Made by a program: the position numbers and the translations under genes
In this document: positions 13,413 to 37,067 of the stretch, one piece after another
How the letters are laid out: each line of letters starts with the position of its first letter
Position numbering within the stretch: position 1 is the stretch's first letter
Notes under the pieces: generated by a model
The model's input: the letters and a program-made list of their open reading frames with translations, nothing else
The model's database searches: none
Told to the model about the DNA's origin: nothing
DNA from: Candidatus Gastranaerophilales bacterium
GTDB taxonomy: Bacteria; Cyanobacteriota; Vampirovibrionia; Gastranaerophilales; Gastranaerophilaceae
DNA: 38,579 bases
Assembly (NCBI GenBank): GCA_944326425.1
Contig: CALVDX010000002.1
Location: 136,902-175,480 of the forward strand
Reading direction: 5' to 3'

Positions 13413-13441
13413 TTGACCTCAGTATTCATATTTGCGATAAT
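13413..13441 (+). promoter_or_regulatory. pyr operon promoter
   Basis: TTGACC (13413-13418), 17 nt, GATAAT (13436-13441): near-consensus sigma-70 type. The start site would fall near 13448, about 12 nt before the leader peptide ATG. Confidence 0.75.
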
Positions 13442-13459
13442 AGTCAGGATGGTGAAATT

Positions 13460-13504
13460 ATGAATTTTACAAACGTTGGTAAGAAAAAATTTGTTTACTT
13501 CTAA
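13460..13504 (+). CDS. Putative pyr operon leader peptide (14 aa)
   Basis: The frame MNFTNVGKKKFVYF ends with TAA two bases before the terminator stem. Upstream AGGATGG (13446-13452) is a good Shine-Dalgarno. The codons after GGT are A- and T-rich (AAG AAA AAA TTT GTT TAC TTC). A ribosome finishing this peptide would cover the 5' arm of the terminator. This is the geometry of the E. coli pyrBI leader, where UTP shortage slows RNA polymerase, lets the ribosome catch up and prevents termination. Function here is inference; translation is unproven. Confidence 0.6.
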   Translation: MNFTNVGKKKFVYF

Positions 13505-13506
13505 AG

Positions 13507-13539
13507 AAAAGAGAAAAGTATTTGCTTTTCTCTTTTTTT
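13507..13539 (+). terminator. Intrinsic terminator / attenuator before pyrK
   Basis: AAAAGAGAAAAG (13507-13518), loop TATTTG, CTTTTCTCTTTT (13525-13536), continuing the T-run to 13539. It lies between the promoter and pyrK, 18 nt before the pyrK ATG, so it must be read through for operon expression. Confidence 0.8.
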
Positions 13540-13557
13540 ATAAGGATAAAGAAAGTA

Positions 13558-14334
13558 ATGGTAAAAAAACAGTTTAAAGCCAAAATCAAATATAATAAAT
13601 ACACAGGGAAAGGCCTGTACATAATGGATTTAGAGACCCCGGGCGGAATAGTTTCCAAACCGGGGCAATTTATATCCATCCTTATCCCAAACAAAACTCT
13701 CCGACGCCCGATTAGTATCCTTGAAAACACCGGAACCTCTCTCCGATTGCTTTATAAAATCCGCGGAGAAGGAACAAAATACCTTTCAATGCTTACAGAA
13801 GGTGAAAGTATTGACTTTACAGGTCCGTTCGGGAATTCTTTTTCTCTCCAAAAAAGAAACCTGTTAATCGGTGCCGGTGTCGGAATTGCTCCTGTTTACT
13901 ACTTAAAAGGGATGGGGATAAACGGAGGGGTAAATAAGGGCGAAACAAAACTGATTGCAGGATTTAAAACAAAAGACGAAATTCCGGAAGATTTGCTGCC
14001 CTCAATAGATTTCATATCAACCGATGACGGGAGTTACGGAGTAAAAGGCAGTATTGTTGATTATACAAAAAGCTGTATAGATAAGTTTAAACCCGATAAC
14101 ATCTGTATTTGCGGCCCCGTTATCGTAATGAAACTTATTTCTCAGATTGCTTTAGAAAAAAATATCAACTGCCAGGTCTCTATGGAAAGCATGATGGGAT
14201 GTTCAATCGGAGCATGCCGCGGTTGCGTTATAAAAATCAATGATAACGGAATAATAAAAAATGCCTCAGTCTGTAAAGAAGGTACCGTATTTGATGCAAG
14301 AAAAGTTTTCTACGGAGGATGCAAGCATGCCTGA
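13558..14334 (+). CDS. pyrK: Dihydroorotate dehydrogenase electron transfer subunit PyrK
   Basis: 258 residues, ferredoxin-reductase fold. RRPISILE (49-56) is the FAD-binding motif, LLIGAGVGIAPVYYL (102-116) starts the NAD-binding domain, and C215, C220, C223 and C239 ligate the 2Fe-2S cluster (GCSIGACRGC...C). With PyrD type 1B it passes electrons from dihydroorotate to NAD+. The start is ATG 13558 with AAGGA upstream; an in-frame ATG at 13522 is inside the attenuator hairpin and is rejected. Residues 120-128 (GINGGVNKG) are encoded by GGAGGGGTAAATAAGGG, a copy of the dispersed GGGGTAAAT motif, at the loop before the next beta strand. Confidence 0.93.
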   Translation: MVKKQFKAKIKYNKYTGKGLYIMDLETPGGIVSKPGQFISILIPNKTLRRPISILENTGTSLRLLYKIRGEGTKYLSMLTEGESIDFTGPFGNSFSLQKRNLLIGAGVGIAPVYYLKGMGINGGVNKGETKLIAGFKTKDEIPEDLLPSIDFISTDDGSYGVKGSIVDYTKSCIDKFKPDNICICGPVIVMKLISQIALEKNINCQVSMESMMGCSIGACRGCVIKINDNGIIKNASVCKEGTVFDARKVFYGGCKHA

Positions 14335-15244
14335 TATGAGAGTAAGCAAAGGGAAATTACAGCTTAAAAATCCGATAATGACCGCATCAGGCACTTACGG
14401 GTACAATCTTGAATACGAAGATTTTACAGACCTTACCTCACTCGGAGCGATAGTAACGAAAGCTATAACCCTCAATCCGCGTGAAGGCAATCCGTGGCAG
14501 AGAATTATTGAGACCGATTGCGGTATGGTTAATTCAATAGGATTGGAAAATGTTGGAATAGAGCAGTTTTTAAAAGAAAAACTCCCCATTCTTATTAAAA
14601 GGAAAATAGATTTTTCCGTAAATATTGCAGGCAGCACTCTTGATGAGTACATAACCCTTGCCCGAAAGTGCGAAGCCAACAACATAAAAATGATAGAACT
14701 AAACGTATCCTGCCCCAACGTTCAGCACGGATGTCTGGAGTTTGGCGTTGATGAAAATACATTAGGCAGTCTTGTAAAGTCCGTCCGCAGTGTATTTAGC
14801 GGGTGTTTGACAATTAAACTTACCCCGAACGTTACAAGTATCGAAAACCTGGGACTAGCCTGCCAAGAAGCCGGTGCCGATGCGGTTTCTGCAATAAATA
14901 CGCTAAAGGGTACCGGTATAAAATTAACTTTTGAAAACGGAAAATTCAAAAAAGAACAGGTTACAGGCGGATACTCAGGGCGAGGAATAAAACCAGCAGC
15001 ACTCAGCGCGGTTTTGAGATTAAGCAAAGTACTAAGTATTCCAATCATCGGCATAGGCGGAATTTATTCCTTAAATGATGTTTTTGAATTCTTTGCTGCC
15101 GGCGCCGATGCCGTACAAATAGGAACCGCAAATTTTACCCATCCGGATATTGCAGGGAAAATTGTTTCTGAATTATATAGTTTTATGGGAAATAACGGGT
15201 TTAATACCCTCGATGAATTGAAAGGAGCGCTAAGAAATGAGTAA
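14327..15244 (+). CDS. pyrD: Dihydroorotate dehydrogenase, class 1B
   Basis: 305 residues, an FMN-binding TIM barrel. ASGTYGY (20-26), TKAITLNPREGN, NVSCPN (126-131; Cys129 is the catalytic base of class 1 enzymes), IIGIGGIYS and GADAVQIGTA are all present. It oxidises dihydroorotate to orotate in the cytoplasm, paired with PyrK. The start is ATG 14327, eight bases inside the end of pyrK, with GGAGGA at 14313-14318. An upstream in-frame ATG (14261) lies deep in pyrK and lacks a Shine-Dalgarno. The 8-nt overlaps at both ends suggest translational coupling. Confidence 0.95.
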   Translation: MPDMRVSKGKLQLKNPIMTASGTYGYNLEYEDFTDLTSLGAIVTKAITLNPREGNPWQRIIETDCGMVNSIGLENVGIEQFLKEKLPILIKRKIDFSVNIAGSTLDEYITLARKCEANNIKMIELNVSCPNVQHGCLEFGVDENTLGSLVKSVRSVFSGCLTIKLTPNVTSIENLGLACQEAGADAVSAINTLKGTGIKLTFENGKFKKEQVTGGYSGRGIKPAALSAVLRLSKVLSIPIIGIGGIYSLNDVFEFFAAGADAVQIGTANFTHPDIAGKIVSELYSFMGNNGFNTLDELKGALRNE

Positions 15245-15806
15245 CGAAGCGTTAGAACTCTTAGAGAAAACGGAAGGAGTACTGAAAGGACATTTTTGTC
15301 TGACTTCGGGGCTGCATTCCGACATATACTTTCAGTGTGCAAAGCTCTACCAGTACCCCGAGTACACGGAAAAAATAGCAAAGCTTATTGCAAAAAGTCT
15401 TGAAGGTGTAGAGTTTGACACAGTAATATCTCCCGCAATAGGGGCCGTTATTATAGGTTACGAAACAGCAAAACAAGCTAAAAAGCGAAACCTCTTTGTT
15501 GAGCGCAAAGACGGTATAATGCAGCTCCGCCGCGGTTATACCCTCAAAAAAGGCGAAAGAGTCGTCATAGTAGAAGATGTTATAACTACAGCGCGCACAA
15601 TCAAAGAAACAATAGAAGCAATAAAAGAATTTGAGCCCGAAATTGCCGCAGTAGGCTGTATAGTTGACAGAACCTGCGGTAAAATAGGTTTAAACATAAA
15701 ATCCGTACTCCAAATAGATCCGGTAACTTACGAACCCGGCAAATGCCCGCTCTGCGCCGCCGGTATACCAATCATTAAGCCCGGCAGCCGGGAGGGGGGT
15801 AAATGA
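15237..15806 (+). CDS. pyrE: Orotate phosphoribosyltransferase
   Basis: 189 residues. It contains LTSGLHSDIYFQC (22-34), the PRPP loop VVIVEDVITTART (109-121) and the C-terminal CPLCAAGIPIIKPGSR typical of the longer bacterial enzymes. It adds ribose phosphate from PRPP to orotate, giving OMP. The start overlaps the pyrD end by 8 nt, with AAGGAG upstream. The last codons (EGGK-stop) are encoded by GAGGGGGGTAAATGA, a copy of the dispersed G-tract/TAAAT repeat that continues past the stop, so the C-terminus may have been set by repeat insertion. Confidence 0.94.
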   Translation: MSNEALELLEKTEGVLKGHFCLTSGLHSDIYFQCAKLYQYPEYTEKIAKLIAKSLEGVEFDTVISPAIGAVIIGYETAKQAKKRNLFVERKDGIMQLRRGYTLKKGERVVIVEDVITTARTIKETIEAIKEFEPEIAAVGCIVDRTCGKIGLNIKSVLQIDPVTYEPGKCPLCAAGIPIIKPGSREGGK

Positions 15807-15832
15807 GGGGGGTAAATAAAGGGGGAAATGAG
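15790..15832 (+). repeat. GGGGGGTAAAT repeat cluster over the pyrE stop
   Basis: GGAGGGGGGTAAATGA, then GGGGGGTAAATAAA and GGGGGAAATGAG: three adjacent copies of a G-tract/TAAAT unit, the first supplying the pyrE stop codon. The same unit occurs near 5964, 6017, 13246 and 13924. Confidence 0.7.
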
Positions 15833-15897
15833 CATCTCCAGGCGGAATGAAAAACTTTCCCCTCGCCCGACGCACTCCTGTCCGGTAAAAACTAAAA

Positions 15898-16058
15898 TGT
15901 CATCCCGAACTTGTTTCGGGATCTTACCGGAAAACAAGTATAACGCCAAGCGGGTAAGATGCTGAAGCGCGAACGAGCAGAGAGCGAAGGGCAAAGCGTG
16001 AGCCTTTGCCCGTAGACTCGTTTAACGCGAGTGAGCAAGAACCAAGTTCAGCATTACA
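15898..16058. repeat. REP/MITE-like palindromic element between pyrE and pyrB
   Basis: Ends TGTCAT and ATTACA are near-inverted. Inside are stacked inverted repeats: ATCCCGAA/TTCGGGAT (15902-15909, 15915-15922), ATCTTACC/GGTAAGAT (15921-15928, 15953-15960) and ATGCTGAA/TTCAGCAT (15959-15966, 16047-16054). The last encloses CGCG-AACGAG/CTCGTT-CGCG and GGGCAAAG/CTTTGCCC (15989-15996, 16004-16011). The CCCGAACTTGTTTCGGG core is a dispersed repeat I know from many bacterial genomes. The RNA could act as a partial terminator or processing site inside the operon. The gap 15833-15897 holds no gene I recognise. Confidence 0.75.
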
Positions 16059-16117
16059 AATCAAGGATAAACAAACCCAGCTGTAAAATTCAAAAATAAC
16101 AAGGAGAATACCAAAAC

Positions 16118-17089
16118 ATGAAAAACTTAATTGATATAAAAAGACTTACAAAAGAAGAAATAACCGCAATAATAAACCGCGCGGCGGAATTTAAAGCCGC
16201 ATCACAGGATCCCGCGCGCGGGGAAATTAATTACACAAGCGGGATAAGCGACTTTGCACGTTTAGGAGAGCGTCTGTACCGAGCAAGTTCCTGTTCCAAT
16301 AAAACCGCCTGCCTGATGTTCTTTGAAAACTCTACAAGAACAAAGTGTTCATTTGCAATAGCCGCACAAAAACTGGGGATGAATACCATTGACTTCAATG
16401 TACAAACCTCCTCTTTATCCAAAGGCGAAACACTAAAAGATACCCTTGATAACCTGTTTTATATGGGAGTTAATGTAGTAATTCTGCGCCATAGCGATGA
16501 TGATATGACAGAAAGAATGTCAAAGGAAGTAAAATTCCCGATGGCATTCATAAACGCCGGCGACGGAAAAAGTGCACACCCGACGCAGGCACTTCTTGAT
16601 TATATGACCATGCTTGAAAAACTCGGAACTGTTGAAGGCAAAAAAATCGTTATTGCCGGAGATGTCAGCCACTCCCGCGTTGCAAAATCAAATCTTGCGC
16701 TGCTTAGTAAAATGGGCGCAAATGTTCACTTTTTTGCGCCGGAATACTTCACTCCCAAAAACAAAGAAGAATTTAACGTAATCTGGGAAGAAGATTACAA
16801 CACGGCTATTACGGACGCAGATGTCGTAATGCTTTTAAGAATTCAGACAGAACGTTTAAACGGTGCAGAAACTGAAAAAGCAAAACACTACAGCGAAAAA
16901 TACTGTCTTACGACAGAACGGCTCGAAAAATATGCGCCGAATGCAATTCTTATGCACCCCGGACCGGTAAACCGCGACATTGAAGTTTCGTCAGAACTTC
17001 TTGATTCTCCAAAAGGTAAAACAATTCTGGAACAGGCGCGTAACGGTGTTTATGTAAGAATGGCGGTGCTTGAAAACACTGCAGGATAA
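16118..17089 (+). CDS. pyrB: Aspartate carbamoyltransferase catalytic subunit
   Basis: 323 residues. FFENSTRTK (68-76) binds carbamoyl phosphate (usually STRTR). SSLSKGETL, HPTQALLDY, GDVSHSRVAKSN, LRIQTERL and HPGPVNRDIEV are the aspartate carbamoyltransferase set, and LRxQxER plus the SKGE loop exclude ornithine carbamoyltransferase. It joins carbamoyl phosphate and aspartate. AAGGAG (16099-16104) precedes the ATG. Between residues 27 and 61 there are about 24 more residues than in E. coli PyrB, and the DNA there holds a 12-bp GC palindrome, CCCGCGCGCGGG (16211-16222). No regulatory pyrI is present. Confidence 0.93.
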   Translation: MKNLIDIKRLTKEEITAIINRAAEFKAASQDPARGEINYTSGISDFARLGERLYRASSCSNKTACLMFFENSTRTKCSFAIAAQKLGMNTIDFNVQTSSLSKGETLKDTLDNLFYMGVNVVILRHSDDDMTERMSKEVKFPMAFINAGDGKSAHPTQALLDYMTMLEKLGTVEGKKIVIAGDVSHSRVAKSNLALLSKMGANVHFFAPEYFTPKNKEEFNVIWEEDYNTAITDADVVMLLRIQTERLNGAETEKAKHYSEKYCLTTERLEKYAPNAILMHPGPVNRDIEVSSELLDSPKGKTILEQARNGVYVRMAVLENTAG

Positions 17090-17096
17090 AAGAAAA

Positions 17097-18269
17097 ATGG
17101 AAATAACTGCTCAAAATTTAAAAATAAATATAACAAACGGGATAATTAGGGATATTCAGGCGGGCAATCCTGCAAGTAATCTATACCTGTCTCCGCGTTT
17201 TATTGACCTGCACTGCCACCTTAGAGAGCCCGGAGGAGAAGCAAAAGAAACCCTGCAAACAGGTATAAAATCTGCATTCAACGGCGGCTACGGAACTATT
17301 TTTGCAATGCCCAACACAAATCCCGCCTGCGATAATCCCGACACACTTAAATATATTCTCTCCCGTGCTGAAAATCCTTACGCAGTAACCGTTAAACCGG
17401 TTTGCGCAATAACAACCGGGCTTGCCGGCAGCGCACTTACGGATTTTGAAACGTTAGCAGCGCTTGGCACCGGATGGTTTTCCAATGACGGCAAACCTGT
17501 TGAGGATATGGAACTTTTAAAAAATGCCCTCAAAAAAGCAAAAAAAGCCAATGTTCTTATAATTTCGCATGCTGAAAATACAGCATTCCCGCCGCAGGAT
17601 CCGCATTCTGAATACACCGCCGTAGAACGGGAAATCGAAGCGGTACGACAGACAGACGGGCGGCTGCACTTTGCACATATTTCTACTAAAAAATCAATAG
17701 AATTAATAAGAAAAGCAAAGAAAAAAGGTTTAAATATAACCGCAGAAACCGCGCCACACTATTTTACCTTCTCTAGGGATGATATTACAAGCGCAGACGG
17801 CAGATTTAAAATGAATCCGCCATTAAGAGAGCCTGATGACGTTATTGCGGTCAAAGAAGGTTTAAAAGACGGAACGATAGATATAATCGCAACAGACCAC
17901 GCCCCGCACACAAGGGAAGAAAAACTGCGCCCCTATGGCAAATCCCCGTTCGGGATTACTGGTTTTGAAACCGCATTTTCACTCGGATATACAAACCTTG
18001 TACTGACAGGAGTTTTAACAATAGAAGAATTGATAAACAAATTCGTTTACGCCCCCGCTGAGATTGCAAGGTTAAAAATTCACGGTTTAAAAACGGGCGA
18101 GAGGGCGGAATTTAACATTATTGACCTTTCTGAAAAATACACGGTACATGGAGAAAACTTTAAAACAAAATGTAAAATAACTCCCTATGAAGGTTTGGAA
18201 CTTACGGGAAAAGTAATCCAAACTGTCATCGGGGACAGAGTTTATGATTTAAGAAAAAGGGAGAAATAA
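17097..18269 (+). CDS. pyrC: Dihydroorotase
   Basis: 390 residues, a metal-dependent amidohydrolase. The N-terminal DLHCHLREPGG (37-47; H39 and H41 are metal ligands), AMPNTNP, AHISTKKS, TAETAPHYF, KMNPPLRE and IATDHAPH motifs are intact. It cyclises carbamoyl aspartate to dihydroorotate. It is slightly shorter than typical class I enzymes (~420-430). The start is ATG 17097, seven bases after the pyrB stop, with AGGA at 17083-17086. An in-frame ATG at 17070 lies inside pyrB and would add residues not seen in the family. Confidence 0.93.
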   Translation: MEITAQNLKINITNGIIRDIQAGNPASNLYLSPRFIDLHCHLREPGGEAKETLQTGIKSAFNGGYGTIFAMPNTNPACDNPDTLKYILSRAENPYAVTVKPVCAITTGLAGSALTDFETLAALGTGWFSNDGKPVEDMELLKNALKKAKKANVLIISHAENTAFPPQDPHSEYTAVEREIEAVRQTDGRLHFAHISTKKSIELIRKAKKKGLNITAETAPHYFTFSRDDITSADGRFKMNPPLREPDDVIAVKEGLKDGTIDIIATDHAPHTREEKLRPYGKSPFGITGFETAFSLGYTNLVLTGVLTIEELINKFVYAPAEIARLKIHGLKTGERAEFNIIDLSEKYTVHGENFKTKCKITPYEGLELTGKVIQTVIGDRVYDLRKREK

Positions 18270-18270
18270 A

Positions 18271-19005
18271 ATGAATATCAACCCGAAAATTAAAGAAAAA
18301 ATAGTTCTGGCACTTGATGTAAACACGCTTGATGAGGCAAAAGCACTTGTAACGGAATTAAAAGATTATACCGGAGTTTTTAAAGTAGGACTTCAATTCA
18401 TTATGGCAAACGGAAGTGAAGTTTTTAAGTTTATAAAAGACGAGGGCGGAAAATTCTTTTTTGATATAAAACTCCACGATATTCCAAATACGGTAAAAAA
18501 AGCGTCCGAAAACATAATTAAGCAGGGGGCGTCTTTTTTTAACCTGCACGCGTCAGGCGGGACGGAAATGATGCGGCAGGCGGCAGAGGGTGCAAACACC
18601 GCGGCAAAAGAACTCGGGCAGGAGGCGCCGGTTATTCTTGCAGTTACACTTTTAACGAGTGTTTCAGCAGATGTTTTAAACAATGAACTAAAAATTCCCT
18701 ACGATACAAAAGAGTATGCGCTAGGTCTTGCAAAACTCGCAAAATCAAGCGGTATGAGCGGGGTTGTAGCCTCGGCGCACGAATGTGCGGATATAAAATC
18801 CGCCTGCGGAAACGATTTTAAAGTCCTATGCCCCGGAATACGCCCCGAGTGGTCAGTAAAGGGCGACCAGAAACGTATTGCAACACCGTCTTATGCAGTA
18901 TCGCAGGGAGCGGACTACCTTGTAATCGGAAGGGCAGTAACCGCAAGCGATGACAGGATTGGGGCAATGAAAAAAATTTATGACGAAATTGAAGGTATTT
19001 TATAA
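18271..19005 (+). CDS. pyrF: Orotidine 5'-phosphate decarboxylase
   Basis: 244 residues. IVLALDV (11-17), the catalytic DIKLHDIPNTV (65-75, with D65, K67 and D70), VLCPGIRPEW and DYLVIGRAVTAS (phosphate-binding end of the barrel) identify the group I enzyme. It decarboxylates OMP to UMP, the last step. Its ATG follows the pyrC stop directly, and its stop TAA shares one base with the carA ATG, indicating tight coupling. Confidence 0.95.
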   Translation: MNINPKIKEKIVLALDVNTLDEAKALVTELKDYTGVFKVGLQFIMANGSEVFKFIKDEGGKFFFDIKLHDIPNTVKKASENIIKQGASFFNLHASGGTEMMRQAAEGANTAAKELGQEAPVILAVTLLTSVSADVLNNELKIPYDTKEYALGLAKLAKSSGMSGVVASAHECADIKSACGNDFKVLCPGIRPEWSVKGDQKRIATPSYAVSQGADYLVIGRAVTASDDRIGAMKKIYDEIEGIL

Positions 19006-20129
19006 TGAAAGCCAAATTATTATTAGATAACGGAATGATTTTTGAGGGCGAAAACTTTGGCGCGGAAGGAACAGCGTTCGGGGAAATCTGTTTTAACACA
19101 TCAATGGCAGGGTATCAGGAAATTTTAACAGACCCGTCCTACGCCAAGCAGGTTATTGTAATGACTTACCCGGAAATCGGCAACTACGGGATAAACAAAG
19201 ATGATTTTGAAAGTTCAAGAGTTTCCGCGACAGGGTTTGTAGTAAAAAACTATCCGGAAAACGAAAGCCACTACAAATCTTATATTAAACTCAAAGATTA
19301 TTTAAAACAGCAGAATATAATCGGAATTTCAAACATAGACACAAGACGGCTCACTACAATAATACGCGAGAGCGGCGCTATGAACTGTACAATCACAACG
19401 GAAGAAATCACCGGAGAAGTTAGAGAAAAACTCAAAAACTTCTCAATCGATAAAAATATTACCAAACTCGTATCAAGAAGTACCGAGGAAGTTGTAAAAC
19501 CAGCGCAGGAAAAAGCAAACGGGCTGCGTATAGCGGTTATTGACTGCGGAATAAAAAAGAGTATCATTGATTGTTTTAAAGACCGCGGATGTGAATTAAC
19601 GATTTATCCGAATGTTGTCAGTGCTGACAAAATTCTTGAATCAAAGTTTGACGCCGTATTAATTTCCAACGGCCCGGGCGACCCGCAGGATGCAGCAGAA
19701 ACAATTAAAACCGCAAAAGAACTCACAGGCAAAATCCCGATTTACGGAATTTGCCTCGGATACCAAATCTTGTGTATCGCGCTTGGCGGAAAGACTTACA
19801 AACTAAAATACGGACACAGAGGCGGCAACCATCCGGTTATAAACAAACAAACGGGAAAAGTCTTTATGACATCTCAAAACCACGGTTACGCCGTTCATCC
19901 GGAGTCGCTGCCCGAGAATACTACCATAACTTACGTCAACCTTAATGATGAGACGCTTGAAGGTTTTTCCTGCAAAGCGCTTAAAATTGACGCCGTCCAG
20001 TTCCACCCCGAAGCCGCACCCGGGCCTTACGATGCGCAGATAATTTTTGACGGCTGGGTGAATGAAATGTTAGAGCGCAAACACAATGTTTTAGACAAAT
20101 TAAAAAAATTATTCATAAAAAGAGGTTAG
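19005..20129 (+). CDS. carA: Carbamoyl phosphate synthase small subunit (glutaminase)
   Basis: 374 residues, normal length. The N-terminal CarA domain has GEICFNTSMAGYQEILTDPSY. The class I glutamine amidotransferase domain begins near residue 175, with the catalytic C250 in GICLGYQILC and the His/Glu pair H334/E336 in VQFHPEAAPGPYDA. The residue three after the Cys is Tyr253, where CLGHQ is more common; the triad is intact. It supplies ammonia from glutamine to CarB. It overlaps pyrF by one base and is 4 nt from carB. Confidence 0.95.
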   Translation: MKAKLLLDNGMIFEGENFGAEGTAFGEICFNTSMAGYQEILTDPSYAKQVIVMTYPEIGNYGINKDDFESSRVSATGFVVKNYPENESHYKSYIKLKDYLKQQNIIGISNIDTRRLTTIIRESGAMNCTITTEEITGEVREKLKNFSIDKNITKLVSRSTEEVVKPAQEKANGLRIAVIDCGIKKSIIDCFKDRGCELTIYPNVVSADKILESKFDAVLISNGPGDPQDAAETIKTAKELTGKIPIYGICLGYQILCIALGGKTYKLKYGHRGGNHPVINKQTGKVFMTSQNHGYAVHPESLPENTTITYVNLNDETLEGFSCKALKIDAVQFHPEAAPGPYDAQIIFDGWVNEMLERKHNVLDKLKKLFIKRG

Positions 20130-20133
20130 GATA

Positions 20134-23100
20134 ATGCCAAGAAATAACGATATAAAAAAAGTTCTTGTAATAGGTTCGGGCCCGATTGTAATAGGTCAGG
20201 CGGCAGAGTTTGACTATGCAGGTGTACAGGCCTGCAGAGCGCTTAAAGAAGAAGGAATAAAAGTTGTTCTTATAAACTCAAACCCCGCAACAATTATGAC
20301 GGATGAAACAATCGCGGATAAGGTTTATATTGAACCGCTTACGGTTGAAACCTTTGAGTACGTCATAAATAAAGAGCGGCCTGACGGACTACTTGCGGGG
20401 CTTGGCGGACAAACAGGGCTTAATATGGCGCTAAAACTATACGAAGAAGGGCTTTTAGACAAATACAACGTCAACCTTCTCGGGACAAAAATTGATTCAA
20501 TAAAAAAAGCCGAGGACAGAGAACTGTTTAAAGAACTTATGGTAGAAATCGGCGAACCTGTGCCTGACAGTATTACAGCCTCAAACATGGAGGAGGCGCA
20601 GGAGTTTGCATCAAGAACCGGTTTTCCGCTCATAATCCGTCCTGCGTACACACTAGGCGGCTCGGGCGGCGGTATTGCCTCCAATCAAAAAGAGTTTGAA
20701 GAAATAGTTTACAGCGGACTTTTAAGAAGCCCTATTTCACAAGTATTGATAGAAAAAAGTATTGCAGGGTACAAAGAAATAGAGTACGAAGTAATCCGCG
20801 ACGCAAACGATACGGCAATAACCATTTGTAATATGGAAAATATTGACCCGATTGGAATACATACAGGCGACAGCTTTGTCACAGCCCCATCGCAAACACT
20901 TACAAACAAAGAGTATCAAACATTGAGAAGTTCTGCGCTGAAAATTATCCGCGCACTTAAAATTGAGGGCGGGTGTAATGTTCAGTACGCCCTAGACCCG
21001 ACAAGCAGCCGGTATTATGTAATAGAGGTCAATCCGCGTGTAAGCCGTTCATCGGCGCTTGCATCAAAAGCCACCGGTTTTCCGATAGCCAAAGTCACAA
21101 CCAAAATTGCAATCGGATACAGGCTGGATGAGATTAAAAACGCTATTACACAGAAAACCGCAGCTGCGTTTGAACCCGCGCTGGATTATGTTGTAACCAA
21201 AATTCCCAAGTGGCCGTTTGACAAATTTGACCACGGTGACAGACTTCTGGGTACAAAAATGAAGGCTACGGGCGAGGTTATGGCAATCGGGCGCACTTTT
21301 GAAAGTTCGTTTAAAAAAGCAATAACTTCAATCGAGGATAAAAATACAGGATTGGTCAGAAAAAAATACACCTCTTTTTCGGACGAAGAACTCAAAGCAC
21401 TTTTGACAATTCAGGACGATAGGCGGATTTTCAGGGTAGCAGAGGCACTTTCAAGGAAAATTTCCGTTGATGAAATAAATTATATTACAAAGATTGATAA
21501 GTGGTTTATTTACAAAATTAAAAACCTTGTAGAGTTTGAACAGCGGCTTAAATCAGAACCCTTCACAAAAGGACTGTACCTTGAAGCAAAAGAAAAAGGA
21601 TTCTTGGACAGTGAAATTGCGGTTATTACAAGAAAACGGCTTGAGGATATAGAAGCGTTCAGAAAAGAACACGATATTAAAGCTGCGTTTAAAATAGTAG
21701 ACACCTGCGCCGCCGAGTTTAAAGCCTGCACACCTTACTATTACTCAACTTATAATGAGTATGATGAAAACGTGATTACGGACAAAGAAAGCATCCTTAT
21801 TTTAGGCTCGGGGCCAATCAGAATCGGGCAGAGTATAGAATTTGATTACTGTTCGGTGCACGCAGCGTGGGGCGTTAAGGCGAAAGGGTATGAGGCAATT
21901 ATTGTAAACTCCAACCCCGAAACACTTTCCACCGATTTTGATGTTGCTGACAAACTCTATTTTGAGCCTATGAATATTGAAAATATTATGAACATCGTTG
22001 AGAGTGAAAAACCTTACGGCGTGATAGTGCAGTTTGGCGGACAGACAGCAATTAATCTTGCGGAAAAACTCGACAAAAAGGGGGTTAAACTAATCGGAAC
22101 TTCGCTTGAATCAATAAATCTTGCAGAGGACAGAAAACAGTTTGAGGCGCTCCTGCACGCGCTTGACATCCCGCAGGCAAAAGGTAAAGCCGTCAGGAAA
22201 GTTGAAGAGGCAATCGAAACGGCAGAAGAACTGGGATTTCCGCTCCTTATACGACCGTCATACGTAATAGGCGGCCGCGGTATGCAGGTTGTTTATAATA
22301 CGGAAGAATTGATAACATACTTCAATTCCGCGCTCAAATTCTCAGACGAGCACCCCGTCCTGATTGACCAGTATATTGAGGGTAAAGAAGTTGAACTTGA
22401 TGCGGTTTCGGACGGCGAAAACGTACTTATCCCCGGGATTACCGAACATATTGAGCGGGCAGGTGTTCACTCCGGCGACAGTATGGCAATCTATCCGACA
22501 CAAAAGGTTAAAGCGTCTATGATTAACACTCTCGTCGACTACACTGAACGGCTTGCAAAAGCGCTTAAAATAAAAGGTTTGATGAATATTCAGTTTGTCT
22601 TAAAGGACGACGTGGCATACGTTATAGAAGTTAATCCGCGTGCTTCAAGGACGGTGCCTATTATGAGCAAAGTAACCGGAATCCCGATGGTAGAACTCGG
22701 GATAAGCACAGCTCTCGGGCTAAGTATCAAAGACCTCGGTTACAAACCGGGATTGTACGACAAAACCGACCTTGTGTGCGTAAAAGTTCCGGTATTCTCG
22801 TTCCAAAAATTAAACAGAATAGATCCCGCACTTGCGCCGGAAATGAAGTCTACAGGGGAAGTTCTGGGGATTGATACATCGTTTGACAGAGCGCTTGTGA
22901 AAGGATTTCTTGCTGCAGGGTATAAGTTTGACAGACTTAACGGGGATGTTATGTTATCGCTTAATGACCATACAAAACCGCAGTGCGATGAAATAGCAAA
23001 AACGCTTGTGGAATTAGGTTTCAGAATTGTTGCCACAACAGGAACGCACAAATATCTGCAAGAGCGCGGCATACCGACAAAAGAGATTAAAAATTTCGAT

Positions 23101-23364
23101 ATACCCAAAATGCAGGCACACATGAAGAAAAAACAGCTCTGTTTTATTATTAATACACCTTCAACCAACGCAAACGCAGCACGTATAGGCTCGGAAAACA
23201 GAGGATTTATGATAAGGACAATTGCAGAAATGTATTCAACACCCTGTTTTACGTCGCTTGATACGGCAGGAGCGTATTTAAGGGCGCTAAAATTCCATAA
23301 CTCTTACCCGAATTTGGAGTATAATGGTATAACAGAATACAGAAAGGTTTGTACACTTGTATAA
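20134..23364 (+). CDS. carB: Carbamoyl phosphate synthase large subunit
   Basis: 1076 residues, normal length. Two homologous halves each carry a biotin-carboxylase-like pre-domain and an ATP-grasp: VLVIGSGPIVIGQAAEFDYAG near residue 10 and ILILGSGPIRIGQSIEFDYC near 555; EVNPRVSRSSALASKATG and EVNPRASRTVPIMSKVTG are the metal-binding ends. The C-terminal MGS-like domain (about 930-1076) is the allosteric region, where UMP inhibits and ornithine activates in E. coli. It makes carbamoyl phosphate for pyrimidines and possibly arginine. The start follows AGAGGTTAGGATA. The last 8 nt overlap the next gene. Confidence 0.97.
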   Translation: MPRNNDIKKVLVIGSGPIVIGQAAEFDYAGVQACRALKEEGIKVVLINSNPATIMTDETIADKVYIEPLTVETFEYVINKERPDGLLAGLGGQTGLNMALKLYEEGLLDKYNVNLLGTKIDSIKKAEDRELFKELMVEIGEPVPDSITASNMEEAQEFASRTGFPLIIRPAYTLGGSGGGIASNQKEFEEIVYSGLLRSPISQVLIEKSIAGYKEIEYEVIRDANDTAITICNMENIDPIGIHTGDSFVTAPSQTLTNKEYQTLRSSALKIIRALKIEGGCNVQYALDPTSSRYYVIEVNPRVSRSSALASKATGFPIAKVTTKIAIGYRLDEIKNAITQKTAAAFEPALDYVVTKIPKWPFDKFDHGDRLLGTKMKATGEVMAIGRTFESSFKKAITSIEDKNTGLVRKKYTSFSDEELKALLTIQDDRRIFRVAEALSRKISVDEINYITKIDKWFIYKIKNLVEFEQRLKSEPFTKGLYLEAKEKGFLDSEIAVITRKRLEDIEAFRKEHDIKAAFKIVDTCAAEFKACTPYYYSTYNEYDENVITDKESILILGSGPIRIGQSIEFDYCSVHAAWGVKAKGYEAIIVNSNPETLSTDFDVADKLYFEPMNIENIMNIVESEKPYGVIVQFGGQTAINLAEKLDKKGVKLIGTSLESINLAEDRKQFEALLHALDIPQAKGKAVRKVEEAIETAEELGFPLLIRPSYVIGGRGMQVVYNTEELITYFNSALKFSDEHPVLIDQYIEGKEVELDAVSDGENVLIPGITEHIERAGVHSGDSMAIYPTQKVKASMINTLVDYTERLAKALKIKGLMNIQFVLKDDVAYVIEVNPRASRTVPIMSKVTGIPMVELGISTALGLSIKDLGYKPGLYDKTDLVCVKVPVFSFQKLNRIDPALAPEMKSTGEVLGIDTSFDRALVKGFLAAGYKFDRLNGDVMLSLNDHTKPQCDEIAKTLVELGFRIVATTGTHKYLQERGIPTKEIKNFDIPKMQAHMKKKQLCFIINTPSTNANAARIGSENRGFMIRTIAEMYSTPCFTSLDTAGAYLRALKFHNSYPNLEYNGITEYRKVCTLV

Positions 23365-29688: not shown

Positions 29689-29868
29689 ATGAGGCATTTA
29701 TTCAGGTTTGGCACTTTTAAAAATTTTGTAAAAATTTTTAAAAAATGTGTTATATATTTGCAAAGTTGTGGAATAAAAACTATAGGCAGTATAAAAACAA
29801 AGCAGACACTTGAAAGTTCAAGGACGCTTGGGCGTGTCTGTACATATCATGGAGATACACTAAGTTGA
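29689..29868 (+). CDS. Possible small basic protein in the fliD leader (59 aa)
   Basis: An open frame from ATG 29689 ends at TGA 29866-29868, overlapping the fliD TTG start (29865-29867) in the one-base-shifted TTGA arrangement used for translational coupling. The product MRHLFRFGTFKNFVKIFKKC... is basic (many Lys and Arg) with 3 Cys. The Shine-Dalgarno is only a weak AGAGAG. Part of the coding sequence is an AT-rich hairpin and a three-stem structure, so the frame may be accidental. Confidence 0.3.
   Translation: MRHLFRFGTFKNFVKIFKKCVIYLQSCGIKTIGSIKTKQTLESSRTLGRVCTYHGDTLS
29803..29840 (+). promoter_or_regulatory. Three-stem RNA structure just upstream of fliD
   Basis: CAGACAC (29803-29809) pairs with GTGTCTG (29834-29840). 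Inside are a CTTGA/TCAAG hairpin (loop AAGT) and an ACGC/GCGT hairpin (loop TTGG), with partial competition for 1-2 bases. It ends 10 nt before the Shine-Dalgarno GGAGAT (29851-29856). Further upstream are CTGAAT/ATTCAG and a long AT-rich hairpin (29711-29749). I cannot match it to a known riboswitch. Confidence 0.4.
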
Positions 29869-32800
29869 GCGTAATCGAGTTTAGCGGTTTAGTAACTGGT
29901 TTGGACACCAATTCGTGGGTAAGTGCACTCACGGCGCTCAAGAATGCAAAAGTTCAGGAGCTGGAAGCAGAAAAAGCTGCCGTTGTAGAATTAAAAGATG
30001 TTGTATCAGGGATTAAAACATTCTTTTCATCGTTTAGGACATCTCTGGAAAGACTTACCGATGCACGATTGGGTGTAGATGCCATGGACATATTTGTTCA
30101 AAACCTTGCCAACTCCTCCGATCCGTCAAAAGTTACCGCTACTGCAACACACACGGCCTCAAGGGATACTTATGAAGTGGGCGTTACACAATTAGCAAGC
30201 GCAACAAAAGTTAATACTGCCATTAGAAAAACATTCACAATGACTTACACTGCCGATATGGACACTAAATTGTCTATTCTGGGGGTTAAAGAGGGATACG
30301 TATCAGTAAATGAAAAAGAGATTAAAGTTGAAAATAGTGATACTATCAGCACATTAATCGACAAACTTGCCGATATAGGAGTAACTGCCACATACGACGA
30401 AGGGAAAGGACGTTTCACAATAGAAACCGATATATTTGAGGTTGATGAAGGAACAACAAATGTCTTTGGAGCTCTCGGGCTAACATTCAAAGACATTACA
30501 GGTGTATCCTCGGGAGAGCTGCGTGTTGAAGGATATGTAACAATTAAACCGACAACTTTATTATCAGATATAGGTGCAACCGGCGGTAATATCATGATAA
30601 ATAAAACCGTTGAAAACCTTACATTCAATTCCGGAGACACTATCCAAACATTCCTTGATTACATGAATAACAAATACGGAGCAGGTACTGCCACCATGGA
30701 TTCCGGCGGATTTATAACGATTTCGGGGGTTGATATTGAAGAACTCAGAGGGGGTTCAAATATTATAACAGCCCTCGGCTTGACAGAAACCGTTGATACA
30801 GTGACATCTTCCAGTGACCGATTGTACTATGACAATACTGAATTTGCAAACGCTAATACAGCACTCGGTAATTTAAATACTACATTTTCTAACTACAGAC
30901 TTATTCTGGGCAATGGTTCAAGCACTCAAACCGTAAATTTATCTTCCACATCAACACTGGGAGATATAATTAATCAAATAGAAACTTATGCTGCCAACAA
31001 TGGTATGAATGCAGATATAGAATTGACAAACCAAGGTGCAATTATTATTACCGGGGATATCGATAAACTGTATATAAGCGGCGGAATTGCTGACGGACTG
31101 GGATTAAAAACCGATACCGTTAACGGAACAACATTAACCGGCTCTCATATGGAATATTCTATTACTTATACTGCCAAAACAAGTACAACATTTGGAGATT
31201 TAGGGATATCCGGAAGCAATTTAACATACAACGTATTAAACGAACGCGGGGAAACACTTGCTGCAAACCTAAATGTAACTTCAACTACTACCATTGAAAA
31301 CTGGTTTGCTTCAATGAAACAGTACGGCATATCTGCTTCAATATCAGAAGAAGGGGTTATATCTGTAGACGGCGGAATTATATCCGGCAATCTGGCAACA
31401 GCACTTGGATTATCTTCCGTTGTATCAGGAGAAGTTATATCAGAAACATCAGCAGAATCTAATGCTTTAGCCGGGACAACAACAACCCAGGCCACAATGA
31501 CTTCATCATTGCAATCTCTAGGAATTACATCTAATCAAACCCTTACAATTAATGTTAACGGCACTAATACAACACGTAACTTTACAGGAACCTCTACCTT
31601 GCAGGATGTTGCAGATGCAATTGCAGCTGCCGGCGGAGAAATGTCTATTAAGGATGGTGAACTTAGCATTTCCGGTGTAGATAAACTATCCGGCTCATTA
31701 GTCTCATCACTTAACCTTGATGAAAACACTATCCAAGGTACATCAATGTATAATACCAACCTTGCTTATACAATGACTTCAATTGCAACCGAAGCAACCC
31801 AATTTTCACACTTAGGTATAACTAACTTAAGTTTTGCAGTCTATGATGAAGAGGGGAATTTGCAGGGTAATGTTAATCTTGCATCAACTTCGACAGTGGG
31901 CGACTTCATTAACCGCCTCGGCACTTACGGACTGTCTGCAAACATTGATGAAAATGGTGTTATTTCACTGGAAGGGGGGTATATCACAGGAAACCTCGCC
32001 AATAGTCTTGGACTTTCATACAGTGCAGACCATACCTACGTATCCAAAACTACCATACAATCTAATGCTCTCATGGGTACTATTACTACAACTGCATCCA
32101 TGACCTCATCACTGGCAGACTTTGGAATTAATTCTACACAATATTTAACAATCCGGGACATGGGAACTACAACCGTTCATTCCTTTACATCAGCATCAAC
32201 TCTTCAAGATATTTCAAACGCCATCAAAGCTGCCGGCGGAGAATTTACATTTGAAAATAATCAAATTTATATCACCGGCATTGATAATATTTCCGGCTCT
32301 TTATTAACAGGGCTTGGATTAACAGCCGTACAAACAGGAAACGCAACATCAATTTACTCGGCAGATGTAAAATATACCCTTGGCGGAATTGCTACAGAAG
32401 CTTCTAAACTTGCAGACTATGGAATTTCTCCAAGCGGAAAAACCTATAATATATATGCATTGGACGGAACAGTTCTCGGGTCAAATCTTTCCCTGAGTGC
32501 AGATGCAAGTGTTGGCGATTTAATCTCTTCACTAACCTCTAAAGGATTAAACGCATACATCGACTCAACAGGCAGAATAAGTATAACTAACGGTTACATT
32601 ACAGGTTCAATGGCCACAGCTCTGGGATTTTCATCAAACAATTATCAAACCAATGTTGTAAGTGTAACCCAGGTATCAGGAACAATTGAGGCTCAACTGC
32701 CTGTTACCGCAACATTAGATACAACATTTGCACAATTAGGTTACAGCGGCACATATTATTTGACAATTAACAATGATGGTACAAACAGTACATATACTTT

Positions 32801-35800
32801 TGATTCATCCTCAACTATTGCCTCAATATCTTATGCAGTTGCTTCTGCAGGAGGCAGTTTTGAACTACTCAACGGAGCTATATCAATTTCCGGTGTAGAA
32901 ATATCCGGTTCACTGGCAACCAGTCTGGGTATCGATCATAAAGCAGGTTCTGTACAACAATACACAACAACAAGCACCAGTATAACATCAACTACTGTCA
33001 TTAACGGCGGAACGACATCAATTGAACAAATTATAACAACAATAACAACTACATTAACTTCCACCGATACTTTTGTTTATCGTTCTGATATAAAATCATA
33101 CGAAATTACCACTTCCAATTTTGATGTGTCTACTACCAAATTATCACAATTGGGAGTTACAAACGGAACAGTAAATTTATATAACGGCAGCACAAATTCA
33201 ACAACAGCAATATTTACAGTAACAACTGATTCCACGGTCGGAGCTTTTATTACAGCACTAGAAATAAACGGCGTAACAGCAAGGTATGCAGACGGGGAAC
33301 TAACACTGACAGCAGATGAAGATTTACAGTTAAGAGAAGGAACTTCCAACCTGTTCAGCCATTTTGGGTTTACAAACACTATTGTTTATGAAACCTTAAC
33401 CCAAAACTCAACATCCAGCGTGCTAAATAACTTTACGACCCATAATCTGACTTCTACCACTGCACTTAGTTTGGTAACCAGCAGTACCTCAGAAATAACG
33501 CTTAATATAAACGGAGAAACTGTTTCAAGAGTGTTTGTAAACTCGGATACAATACAGGATGTAATATACTTTATCGAATCACAAGGCATTACCGCATCGC
33601 TAAATAACGGTACATTCAGCGCCTCCTCAGCATATCAGGAATTTTCTATTTCAGGAAGTCTGGCTTCAGTAATTCTTGGAGAAAACCCGTCGTTTACAAC
33701 AACTTCCCGCCCGACAGCCTGGAGCGGCACAGTTACTGATAAAGAAGAATCAACTGCAATTAATGGCGATACAAAACTTGTTCACCTTGGCGTAACAACC
33801 GGAGATATTAAGATTTATGACAACGGAACGTTAATATCAACAGCTATTAATATAAGTGAAAATACAACCATAAATGATTTAATCTCATCACTATCAAATT
33901 ATGGCTTCACAGCATCATTATCCGGCGGAAGATTAAATATAACAGCAGATTCCGAAATGTACCTTATGGACGAAACATCAAACCTTGCAACAAAACTTGG
34001 TTTGACAAAATCGTACGAGTACAACACTGTTTATCAATCGTCAACATCATCAAGTCTTGCATACACAACAGTAAGAACGATTGGAACATCCACAACACTT
34101 GCTGATATGGGATTTGAAGGAGGCTCCGATTTAAGGCTTATTATTGACGGCACAGTACACTCAATTGGTTTTACCGGAAGTGAAACAATTCAGGATGTAC
34201 TGGATGCCTTAAACGTATACGGAATTAATGCGGCTATAAATAATGGCAGCTTTACTGCATCTTCTACCGAACACACTTTCAGCATTACGGGAGAGTTAGG
34301 CGCAAAACTTGCAAGCTCTTCTCCGGTAACCTCTACAATTACTACTGTAACCGGATATACTACTACTCTGCCGCAATCAGTTAACCCGGTAACAATAAAC
34401 GAAGATGCTAAACTTGTTGACCTTGGAGTTACACAAGGCGGTATAAAAATCTACGATAACGGAACCTGGATTAACACAGGTATAAACATTGATCAAAATA
34501 CTACAATTGGTGACTTCCTTACAGCACTTGAAGGATATGGGTTTACGGCAAACCTTGACGGCAACAAAATTAAAATAAGTACTGATTCCGATAAATATAT
34601 TGCAGATGAGTCCTCAAACCTTGTTTCAAAATTAGGACTGACTAATCGGACACAAACAAAAGTAAATATATATGATCAAACAAATTCCAATACACTAACA
34701 ATGGTCAGAACTTATGAACTTTCAGATACAACGACTTTAAACGACTTGGGATTTGCCTCCGGAACATCATTACGTCTTGAACTTGACGGAGTTTTACACA
34801 ATATAGGTTTTACCGCCGATGATACCATTGGTGAAGTTGTTGATTCATTAAATACATTCGATATCCATGCAGAATTGCAAAACGGTATTCTAACTGCCAG
34901 TACAGAAGACAAAACATTTTATCTTATAGGTTCACTTGCAGATATACTCACAGGTGGAGCCCCAACTTACATAACCACAGAAAAAGTTTTATACCACGAA
35001 ACAGAGTCACAAAGTACAGGAATTACGTATGTAGCAGATTCCTCATCCAAACTTTCGGATCTTGGCGTTGAAACCGGATATATTAACGTACTACAAGCCG
35101 GAGAAATTATTTCTACAATTGCAATCCGCGACGATACCAAAGTTTCTCAACTATTTAGTGCACTTGCTGCTTATGGTATAGCCGGGAATATATCAACCGA
35201 CGGAAGAATCACTATCCAAAGTGTAGGCGATGTAACCTTGCTGGACGGAACATCAAATCTCGTCAGCCACCTTGGACTGGATGATAATATCTACTCAAAT
35301 ACATATTATGGTACAACTCTCGTTTTAGAAGATGATGTCAACGTTGCAACCGAAGACACTCTGGTTTCCTATTATGATACTCCTGACAAAAAGGCTGAAG
35401 GTTCAGTATATCTTGCAATTGAAGATCAGGATGGTAATGTGACAAATACCGTTATCAATATTGAAGCAAATGATACTTTTGGAACCCTGGTAGAAAAATT
35501 AGAAGAAGCAGGGATTTCTGCCAGCTTTGAAAATGGTAAAATTTCATATCATAACGGTATGGGGAGTGTAGAGATTACCGGCGGCACCTCTTCTATTGCA
35601 GATACTCTCGGCTTTGGCGATGCGGTACTTGAACAATGGATGCAAAATGATGTAGAAATCACATACGAACAAGATGAAATAAGATATTTATCCGTTGTTA
35701 ATTATGCAGATAATTCAACAACACTTGAAACGCTTGGTGTTTCAGATGGTGAATTCTCGATAGGTATAAACGGTTCAATAATAAATGTCAATGTTGCAAC

Positions 35801-37067
35801 AACCGACACACTTGCCAATGTAATGTCACGTATTTCAAGCGCTTCAAACGGGTCCGTTACTGCATCAATCACTTCAGACGGAAAGTTTATGCTTGAAGCG
35901 GCAGAAGGTGTTGAACTTATTATCGGAACATCAACCGATACTACAAACCTGGTAACTATTTTTAATCTTACACAAGACGGCTCAAATGTAATTACCGGCA
36001 ACACTTCTTTGTACAGAGCTTCCTCAACATCCAAAATAACAGACAGCGGATTATTCAGAGAAGGCGATGTTACAGAAGGAACATTCACTATAGGAAATGC
36101 CGAATTTACTATTACGAGCGAAACAACTATTGCTTCACTAATCAATGATATTAACCACTCTGAAGCAGCAAATGCCAACGCATATTGGGATAATATTAAC
36201 GGTAAAATGATTCTGACATCTGCAAGTCTGGGCTCATCATACGTTAATATTCAAGGCGGCACAAGTAATTTTACCGAGATTTTCGGGCTGACTATAAATG
36301 ACAACGGGGAAGAAAAACTTACAACATATAATCAGGATTTAGGCGACAATGCTATCCTTACTATTAACGGAACAAGAATTGTCTCAACCTCCAACACCAT
36401 TACAAGCGACATTTCAAGAATCGAAGGGTTAACCGTTAACATAAAAGGTATCACAGAGGGTGAATATGTAACAATAACCGTTGAACGTGATACACAATCC
36501 ATTGTTGATGCCGTTCAGGAAACACTGGATGCATATAATACTCTTATTGCTGAACTAAATACCGTACTTGCAATCGGCGGGGATTTACATAACGATACTG
36601 CATTAAAGAGTATTAAAAATCAAATTACATCAATGTTCACCTCACGCGGCACAAACGGTGTAACACTCTTTAGAAACTTATCAGCAATCGGTATTTCTAC
36701 TGAAAGCGCAAGTTCTGCTATGCCATCCGATATTTATTCACTCTATCTTGATACAGAAAAGTTTGAAAACGCTTTAAATACATCAGAAGATGAAGTCAAA
36801 TTGCTTCTGGTAGGAACAGATGCCAACCCCGGTATATTGACCAAGGTAGAAACAATTATTGAACAAATGCTTACCACTACAGGTTATTTCCAATCAAAGA
36901 GCAAAGCACTCGACAGGGAAATAGACCGATATGATGTAAAAATAGAAAGAGCGCAAAGACAGGCAAATTCATATAAAACTATGCTTGAAAATAAGTTCCA
37001 AAGTATGGAAATGCTTTATTCTAACATGCAAAGTGCTTATCAGAACGTATTCTCCGGCGGACTTTAA
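29865..37067 (+). CDS. fliD: Giant flagellar filament cap protein (FliD/HAP2-like)
   Basis: 2400 residues, whereas typical FliD is 450-700. The N-terminal ~110 residues (FSGLVTGLDTNSWVSALTAL) are the FliD N domain. The C-terminal 215 (from IEGLTVNIKG, about 2186) are the FliD C domain with VDAVQETLDAYNTLIAELN and an end coiled coil. Between them lie about 18 Ser/Thr-rich modules of ~100 residues, each with an LGI/LGV turn, a short NG strand pair, a TST-L-D-I helix, a G-A-strand and a closing SGSLA..LGL, like flagellin hook IN repeats. FliD pentamers cap the filament and help adhesion. The start is TTG with GGAGAT eight bases upstream; it aligns with FliD N-termini. No other flagellar gene is in the window. 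An adhesin with a FliD scaffold is possible. Confidence 0.88.
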   Translation: MSVIEFSGLVTGLDTNSWVSALTALKNAKVQELEAEKAAVVELKDVVSGIKTFFSSFRTSLERLTDARLGVDAMDIFVQNLANSSDPSKVTATATHTASRDTYEVGVTQLASATKVNTAIRKTFTMTYTADMDTKLSILGVKEGYVSVNEKEIKVENSDTISTLIDKLADIGVTATYDEGKGRFTIETDIFEVDEGTTNVFGALGLTFKDITGVSSGELRVEGYVTIKPTTLLSDIGATGGNIMINKTVENLTFNSGDTIQTFLDYMNNKYGAGTATMDSGGFITISGVDIEELRGGSNIITALGLTETVDTVTSSSDRLYYDNTEFANANTALGNLNTTFSNYRLILGNGSSTQTVNLSSTSTLGDIINQIETYAANNGMNADIELTNQGAIIITGDIDKLYISGGIADGLGLKTDTVNGTTLTGSHMEYSITYTAKTSTTFGDLGISGSNLTYNVLNERGETLAANLNVTSTTTIENWFASMKQYGISASISEEGVISVDGGIISGNLATALGLSSVVSGEVISETSAESNALAGTTTTQATMTSSLQSLGITSNQTLTINVNGTNTTRNFTGTSTLQDVADAIAAAGGEMSIKDGELSISGVDKLSGSLVSSLNLDENTIQGTSMYNTNLAYTMTSIATEATQFSHLGITNLSFAVYDEEGNLQGNVNLASTSTVGDFINRLGTYGLSANIDENGVISLEGGYITGNLANSLGLSYSADHTYVSKTTIQSNALMGTITTTASMTSSLADFGINSTQYLTIRDMGTTTVHSFTSASTLQDISNAIKAAGGEFTFENNQIYITGIDNISGSLLTGLGLTAVQTGNATSIYSADVKYTLGGIATEASKLADYGISPSGKTYNIYALDGTVLGSNLSLSADASVGDLISSLTSKGLNAYIDSTGRISITNGYITGSMATALGFSSNNYQTNVVSVTQVSGTIEAQLPVTATLDTTFAQLGYSGTYYLTINNDGTNSTYTFDSSSTIASISYAVASAGGSFELLNGAISISGVEISGSLATSLGIDHKAGSVQQYTTTSTSITSTTVINGGTTSIEQIITTITTTLTSTDTFVYRSDIKSYEITTSNFDVSTTKLSQLGVTNGTVNLYNGSTNSTTAIFTVTTDSTVGAFITALEINGVTARYADGELTLTADEDLQLREGTSNLFSHFGFTNTIVYETLTQNSTSSVLNNFTTHNLTSTTALSLVTSSTSEITLNINGETVSRVFVNSDTIQDVIYFIESQGITASLNNGTFSASSAYQEFSISGSLASVILGENPSFTTTSRPTAWSGTVTDKEESTAINGDTKLVHLGVTTGDIKIYDNGTLISTAINISENTTINDLISSLSNYGFTASLSGGRLNITADSEMYLMDETSNLATKLGLTKSYEYNTVYQSSTSSSLAYTTVRTIGTSTTLADMGFEGGSDLRLIIDGTVHSIGFTGSETIQDVLDALNVYGINAAINNGSFTASSTEHTFSITGELGAKLASSSPVTSTITTVTGYTTTLPQSVNPVTINEDAKLVDLGVTQGGIKIYDNGTWINTGINIDQNTTIGDFLTALEGYGFTANLDGNKIKISTDSDKYIADESSNLVSKLGLTNRTQTKVNIYDQTNSNTLTMVRTYELSDTTTLNDLGFASGTSLRLELDGVLHNIGFTADDTIGEVVDSLNTFDIHAELQNGILTASTEDKTFYLIGSLADILTGGAPTYITTEKVLYHETESQSTGITYVADSSSKLSDLGVETGYINVLQAGEIISTIAIRDDTKVSQLFSALAAYGIAGNISTDGRITIQSVGDVTLLDGTSNLVSHLGLDDNIYSNTYYGTTLVLEDDVNVATEDTLVSYYDTPDKKAEGSVYLAIEDQDGNVTNTVINIEANDTFGTLVEKLEEAGISASFENGKISYHNGMGSVEITGGTSSIADTLGFGDAVLEQWMQNDVEITYEQDEIRYLSVVNYADNSTTLETLGVSDGEFSIGINGSIINVNVATTDTLANVMSRISSASNGSVTASITSDGKFMLEAAEGVELIIGTSTDTTNLVTIFNLTQDGSNVITGNTSLYRASSTSKITDSGLFREGDVTEGTFTIGNAEFTITSETTIASLINDINHSEAANANAYWDNINGKMILTSASLGSSYVNIQGGTSNFTEIFGLTINDNGEEKLTTYNQDLGDNAILTINGTRIVSTSNTITSDISRIEGLTVNIKGITEGEYVTITVERDTQSIVDAVQETLDAYNTLIAELNTVLAIGGDLHNDTALKSIKNQITSMFTSRGTNGVTLFRNLSAIGISTESASSAMPSDIYSLYLDTEKFENALNTSEDEVKLLLVGTDANPGILTKVETIIEQMLTTTGYFQSKSKALDREIDRYDVKIERAQRQANSYKTMLENKFQSMEMLYSNMQSAYQNVFSGGL
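31168..32970 (+). repeat. Three A-B module pairs in fliD (period ~600-612 nt)
   Basis: Two ~100-residue module types alternate. Type A has YTxxxxATxxxxLGI and ends G-YITGNLA-SLGLS; type B has TATMTSSLxxLGI, TSTLQDV-AI-AAGGE and SGVDxLSGSL. Equivalent A codons lie at 31191, 31803 and 32409 (204 and 202 codons apart). So the unit duplicated was the pair. Confidence 0.8.
32970..35330 (+). repeat. C-D module pairs in fliD (period ~636-639 nt)
   Basis: A second pair type follows. Type C has KLVxLGVTxGxIKIYDNGT, D-YGFTA-L, and a strand closing ETSNLA-KLGLT; type D has TTLxDLGF-GxxLRL-xDG-xHxIGFT, TIQDVLDALN. Equivalent C codons fall at 33774, 34410 and 35049 (212 and 213 codons). The first C copy (near 33120) is preceded by a Thr-rich linker and the last C (near 35037) is followed by two more divergent modules. 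Confidence 0.75.

Follow-up and report, generated by a model that had tools for sequence, protein, structure and literature searches.

A conserved leader ahead of the pyrimidine biosynthesis operon of Gastranaerophilales, predicted to work as a repressor-less, ribosome-dependent attenuator

The pyr operon and its leader

The window, i.e., the whole stretch of 38,579 nucleotides that was analysed (C2:136902-175480), originates from a Gastranaerophilales (Melainabacteria) MAG of 2.0 Mb and 99.99% completeness. Among named sequences, its pyrK is closest to those of Candidatus Gastranaerophilales MAGs. Eight genes of the UMP pathway follow each other on its forward strand in the order pyrK-D-E-B-C-F-carA-carB, as matched by NCBIfam models (Table 1), which bears out the first-pass annotation of this DNA in placing a complete pyr operon here, pyrK being the one gene that scores under the cut-offs. 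Upstream of the operon, in divergent orientation, lies a gene for a ComEB-like deaminase (79 bits, under its cut-off).

Table 1. Features of the pyr leader and operon (positions in the window).
Feature	Coordinates	Strand	Basis
Promoter: TTGACC (13413-13418), 17 nt, TGC-GATAAT (13436-13441), extended -10	13413..13441	+	10/12 matches; core columns invariant in genus
Transcript start region (~13447-13449) and Shine-Dalgarno-like AGGATGGTG	13446..13454	+	Start inferred from -10
Leader ORF, 14 codons, MNFTNVGKKKFVYF; ATG at 13460, TAA (13502-13504) at stem base	13460..13504	+	ORF and comparison
U-rich tract TTTGTTTACTTC, candidate pause site	13490..13501	+	Invariant in genus
Attenuator (predicted): purine 5' arm, U-rich loop, pyrimidine 3' arm, U7 tail	13504..13539	+	-16.0 kcal/mol
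pyrK, dihydroorotate dehydrogenase electron transfer subunit	13558..14334	+	NCBIfam, 156 bits, under cut-offs; top matches are PyrK models
pyrD	14336..15244	+	NCBIfam
pyrE	15237..15806	+	NCBIfam
pyrB	16118..17089	+	NCBIfam
pyrC	17097..18269	+	NCBIfam
pyrF	18271..19005	+	NCBIfam
carA	19005..20129	+	NCBIfam
carB	20134..23364	+	NCBIfam

The elements that had been read ahead of pyrK at first pass were all recovered, namely a promoter of the form TTGACC-N17-GATAAT, in which TG precedes the -10 element, a Shine-Dalgarno sequence followed by a 14-codon peptide, and a predicted intrinsic terminator right behind the peptide's stop codon, with 18 nt between its T-run and the pyrK ATG (13558). The leader ATG lies 46 nt ahead of the stem core, and the folding energy of the leader is 3.5 sd under that of shuffled sequences. 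The hairpin is overlooked by a simple terminator scan because it contains few G-C pairs and is mostly A-U. An alignment of the seven members of the genus showed that TTGAC, TTTGnGATAATA and GGTGAAAT are invariant columns, and that 12 stem pairs are 100% kept, two with compensatory changes. Two further candidates were set aside: a start hairpin carrying the ATG in its loop, seen in the window's leader, is not clearly retained in relatives, and for pyrC-like switching or slippage of the transcript start no conserved homopolymer was seen by eye downstream of the -10 element.

Conservation of the leader in relatives

A PyrK search covered 288 genomes of the family, and the regions upstream of loci with a pyr-type pyrK were extracted and oriented. 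Nearly all of these regions present the same succession of promoter, short ORF, hairpin, T-run and pyrK. Considering 94 related pyr operons from 20 genera and 3 families, a short ORF reaches the same hairpin in every one of them (94/94), with its stop at the stem base in 84, within the hairpin in 5, past the hairpin in 5, and more than 14 nt short of it in none; in this tally, loci L052 and L054 and those of families f6 and f7 were read by eye. A strict test, accepting an ATG-started ORF that has 7 or more codons and ends between -6 and +14 nt from the stem core, was passed by 77 of the 88 loci of the family, as compared to 12.0 (sd 3.0, maximum 22) when the 75 upstream nt were dinucleotide-shuffled; on the non-redundant set, the values were 50 of 58 and 8.1 (sd 2.7). 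These counts are not independent, as the loci share ancestry. The 11 failing loci comprise two GTG-started ORFs ending at the base, four ORFs that end within the hairpin, and five that read past the terminator (L017, L018, L019, L027 and L040). Leaders that read through evolved in at least four lineages (G111; G063/G149; G033; G123), and base-stop and read-through forms are both present inside one genus.

Across the family, leader ORFs are mostly 9-15 codons long, the ATG stands a median of 42 nt (IQR 41-46) ahead of the stem core, and the stop 3 nt (2-5) from it. A Shine-Dalgarno-like 4-mer precedes 60 of the 77 leader ATGs, as compared to 19% at random positions. Neither loss of the ATG nor variable spacing between stop and hairpin, which the first-pass annotation had named as evidence against its own reading, appeared among these loci. 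Since the regulation discussed here is deduced from the DNA, it could be argued that the hairpin is a fixed partial terminator that merely lowers basal expression, accompanied by an ORF that arose by chance; however, the excess in the strict test, the Shine-Dalgarno enrichment and the one-sided placement of the stop together indicate that the ORF is maintained, and we regard such an explanation as very improbable.

Outside the family, families f6 and f7 of the order also carry the leader, as recognized by eye (MNYLILKFNILS; MKTYFKDTYEIFI; MMIKIKQNQQNLNIS), and no such leader was seen in families f2, f3 and f4, where some contigs are short upstream. No match to pyrB or pyrD was obtained in approximately half of the family's genera, so that there it is the operon which is missing, rather than the leader; this distribution suggests that gut Melainabacteria have repeatedly lost pyrimidine synthesis and become auxotrophic. 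At L052 and L054 the attenuator unit lies, as judged by eye, farther upstream of pyrK, and tandem repeats (GGGTGAAATCGAGCGATAGCGAGTGAACCCG...) are inserted between the two.

The leader peptide and the U-rich tract

We then compared the peptides themselves. The alignment of the leader across relatives, which had been proposed together with the original reading, shows that ATG, stop-to-stem spacing and terminator are kept while the peptide drifts neutrally, with a synonymous/non-synonymous value of 0.316 as compared to 0.283 if neutral, and amino acids near the expectation from base composition. As the peptide sequence is not conserved, the ORF appears to be kept for the position in which it puts the ribosome. 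Lysine is present in all 51 non-redundant leader peptides, which could recall classical amino-acid attenuation, in which the ribosome stalls at regulatory codons. Nevertheless, lysine amounts to 25% of residues where 21% is expected from composition, its positions drift, no run of regulatory codons beyond composition was found, no antiterminator is apparent in the leaders, and base-stop and read-through ORFs coexist in one genus, all of which makes amino-acid attenuation extremely improbable. Regarding the antiterminator, only weak structure was found in the leaders, and the competition it offers is slight: without the 3' arm, leaders average -3.5 kcal/mol, against -14.1 kcal/mol for the terminator.

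The tract TTTGTTTACTTC is invariant in the window's genus and lies in another reading frame in G063 and G149, an indication that it is kept as nucleic acid. A conserved U-rich leader tract is confined to this genus; across the family, the U-rich region is formed by the loop and 3' arm of the terminator, and the leader upstream of the stem is A-rich (53% A, 31% U), meaning that a classical upstream U-rich pause would be weak outside the window's genus. A slow U-rich stretch in the leader, as in the pyrBI model invoked by the first-pass annotation, would apply to the genus, whereas across the family the candidate slow stretch is that of the terminator.

Search for PyrR and its binding element

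In the pyr operons of Gram-positive bacteria, attenuation by PyrR is common, and a PyrR-type or other protein that binds the leader and favours termination was considered as an alternative here. The absence of a pyrR gene had initially been noted for the window, with a search of the genome proposed; in this work, no match to the PyrR profile above cut-off was found in the window's genome or in 58 relatives (0/59), while the control genomes worked, 6 of 14 passing. One relative that also has the leader carries a PyrR-like phosphoribosyltransferase (L103, G011:C189:256-735) reaching 78 bits against a cut-off of 138 bits, which could represent contamination or a diverged PyrR. On the RNA side, a conserved PyrR-binding loop, named beforehand as a finding that would speak against coupled attenuation, was not found: Rfam models matched only a tRNA in the window and no PyrR-binding element in the leader, and loop sequences vary among relatives. 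Moreover, a protein regulator would leave the conserved ORF and its stop position unexplained. Taken together, we regard protein-mediated control as very improbable.

Composition of the terminator

To characterize the attenuators, their composition was compared with that of predicted terminators located behind genes, taken from the window's own genome (n = 31) and from the family (n = 21). Behind the 5' arm, in loop, 3' arm and tail, the pyr attenuators have a U fraction of 0.74±0.07, as compared to 0.49±0.08 in the own genome (p = 4e-14) and 0.52±0.08 in the family (p = 8e-11). Conversely, the 5' arm is 0.90 purine, against 0.67 and 0.68 in the generic terminators of the own genome and the family, respectively. 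The attenuator in the window, with 0.75 U and a 5' arm of 0.94 purine, has values reached by none of the 31 terminators of its genome. Stability is alike in the three sets (about -14.0 kcal/mol for pyr attenuators, -15.6 for own and -13.8 for family terminators). At stem positions 3-10 counted from the loop, a purine is nearly always found in the 5' arm. Along the transcript, U amounts to approximately 30-39% within the ORF, falls to 18% and 2% in the bins flanking the start of the core, is 17% in the next, and then reaches 47, 60, 75 and 78% over the four 5-nt bins that follow, with 60-78% at +15 to +29.

The terminator itself therefore looks coded for pyrimidine sensing, a point that was absent from the first-pass annotation. 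We propose that the terminator is in itself the nucleotide sensor, in which nearly all demand for pyrimidines falls in the 3' half, behind a U-poor 5' arm, so that polymerase would slow down just when the ribosome can reach the 5' arm and that arm is unable yet to pair; this would make it a self-timed attenuator without repressor that arose in non-photosynthetic relatives of cyanobacteria. We hold this interpretation to be evenly balanced between right and wrong, and the U-rich 3' half could have some other purpose.

Proposed mechanism

Altogether, the leader probably works as an attenuator without repressor that reads the pyrimidine nucleotide pool (UTP-sensing) by ribosome occlusion, through coupling of transcription and translation, with a geometry nearest to that of E. 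coli pyrE and a slow U-rich stretch placed in the terminator rather than in the leader. The initial reading of coupled, UTP-sensing attenuation of the pyr operon is in this way supported by the conserved ATG, spacing and terminator, the neutral peptide and the PyrR search. UTP as the signal is deduced from the content of the operon and the nucleotide layout, and we infer leader translation, termination, slowing of polymerase and the UTP response in the following manner. Polymerase would start approximately 12 nt ahead of the leader ATG. With ample UTP, it would run across both the 14-codon leader and the terminator too early for a ribosome to have loaded and caught up, the hairpin would fold, and transcription would end ahead of pyrK. 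At low UTP (and CTP), polymerase would pass the nearly U-free 5' arm and slow in the loop and 3' arm, both rich in U, with additional slowing in TTTGTTTACTTC, just upstream of the stop, in the window's genus. The ribosome at the stop on the stem foot, or inside the hairpin in some relatives, would then cover the 5' arm, the terminator could not fold, and pyrK-carB would be transcribed. Low UTP would thus probably switch the pyr genes on without any repressor protein.

Placement of the stop at the base of, inside or beyond the hairpin, and never far short of it, matches what ribosome occlusion requires. In E. coli, a stop placed 5 bp ahead of a terminator lowered termination from ~90% to <10%, and this repression was lost at distances above 27 nt between stop and terminator (PMC4824070). 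Moreover, a terminator lying within the initial ~100 bp of a coding sequence normally escapes repression, except where a pause gives the ribosome time to catch up (PMC4824070). The unit described here would fit that picture, with termination by default and relief at low UTP, when polymerase would slow in the U-rich half and the ribosome would arrive at the foot of the stem.

A ribosome-occlusion attenuator could also sense translation capacity or growth state instead of UTP; its ORF-terminator geometry would be identical, and the content of the peptide equally irrelevant. However, among the regions examined the unit occurs only before the pyr operon: a scan of 438 kb of this genome, including a 400-kb sample taken as stretches, yielded no further case with a Shine-Dalgarno sequence, and no leader terminator was found upstream of pyrG and upp. 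In addition, the pyrimidine bias of the terminator fits a pyrimidine signal, and we consider sensing of translation capacity unlikely.

Comparison with known systems

Control by UTP without a repressor, through transcription-translation coupling, is known from enterobacteria. The best comparison is offered by E. coli rph-pyrE, where, according to PMC2784333 (citing Bonekamp 1984), bringing the rph stop closer to the attenuator gives back correct regulation by uracil levels. In that system, termination before a pyr gene is relieved when translation ends near the stem, which in the window is predicted from sequence. Differently from the window, the translated ORF in E. coli is the whole rph gene, pyrE alone is controlled, and the stem is G-C rich; here, a dedicated short leader precedes the whole pathway and the terminator is loaded with U.

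E. coli pyrBI has a dedicated leader peptide and an intrinsic terminator, coupled to the ribosome and free of a repressor (PMC5021804; PMC3641672), and the window is predicted to share these traits. The pyrBI-like geometry initially assigned to this leader stands in so far as a ribosome-coupled terminator precedes pyr genes, but the stop at the stem foot is of the pyrE/rph type, whereas the pyrBI leader reads through. Indeed, pyrL has 44 codons, runs through the terminator and places its ATG 87 nt ahead of the stem, while the window's ORF is far more compact; an ORF through the terminator is absent from the window and present in five relatives. Moreover, the U-rich stretch of pyrBI lies in the leader, and the U fraction of its terminator is 0.47 against 0.75 in the window. 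With the PyrR attenuation of the Bacillus type, the system shares attenuation before a pyr operon, and differs from it in having no PyrR above cut-off, no Rfam match and no antiterminator.

No paper on the pyr leader of Gastranaerophilales was found in a literature search, the main reviews on pyr regulation lying outside it. In gut Melainabacteria, a compact form is kept ahead of the entire de novo pathway in approximately 20 genera; this suggests that the strategy arose more than once, and would imply tight transcription-translation coupling in a phylum in which it has been little studied. Pyrimidines sorted by strand in a terminator may further provide a simple rule for spotting nucleotide-sensing attenuators in other genomes.

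Other features of the window

The gap between pyrE and pyrB (15807-16117) consists of a 311-nt non-coding insert containing the palindrome CATCCCGAACTTGTTTCGGGAT, which has 11 copies in the genome at ≤2 mismatches and is thus a dispersed REP-like repeat within the operon. Farther downstream, an ORF of 2400 amino acids (29865-37067) contains many imperfect internal repeats and, by eye, resembles an enlarged flagellar-cap (FliD-like) protein.
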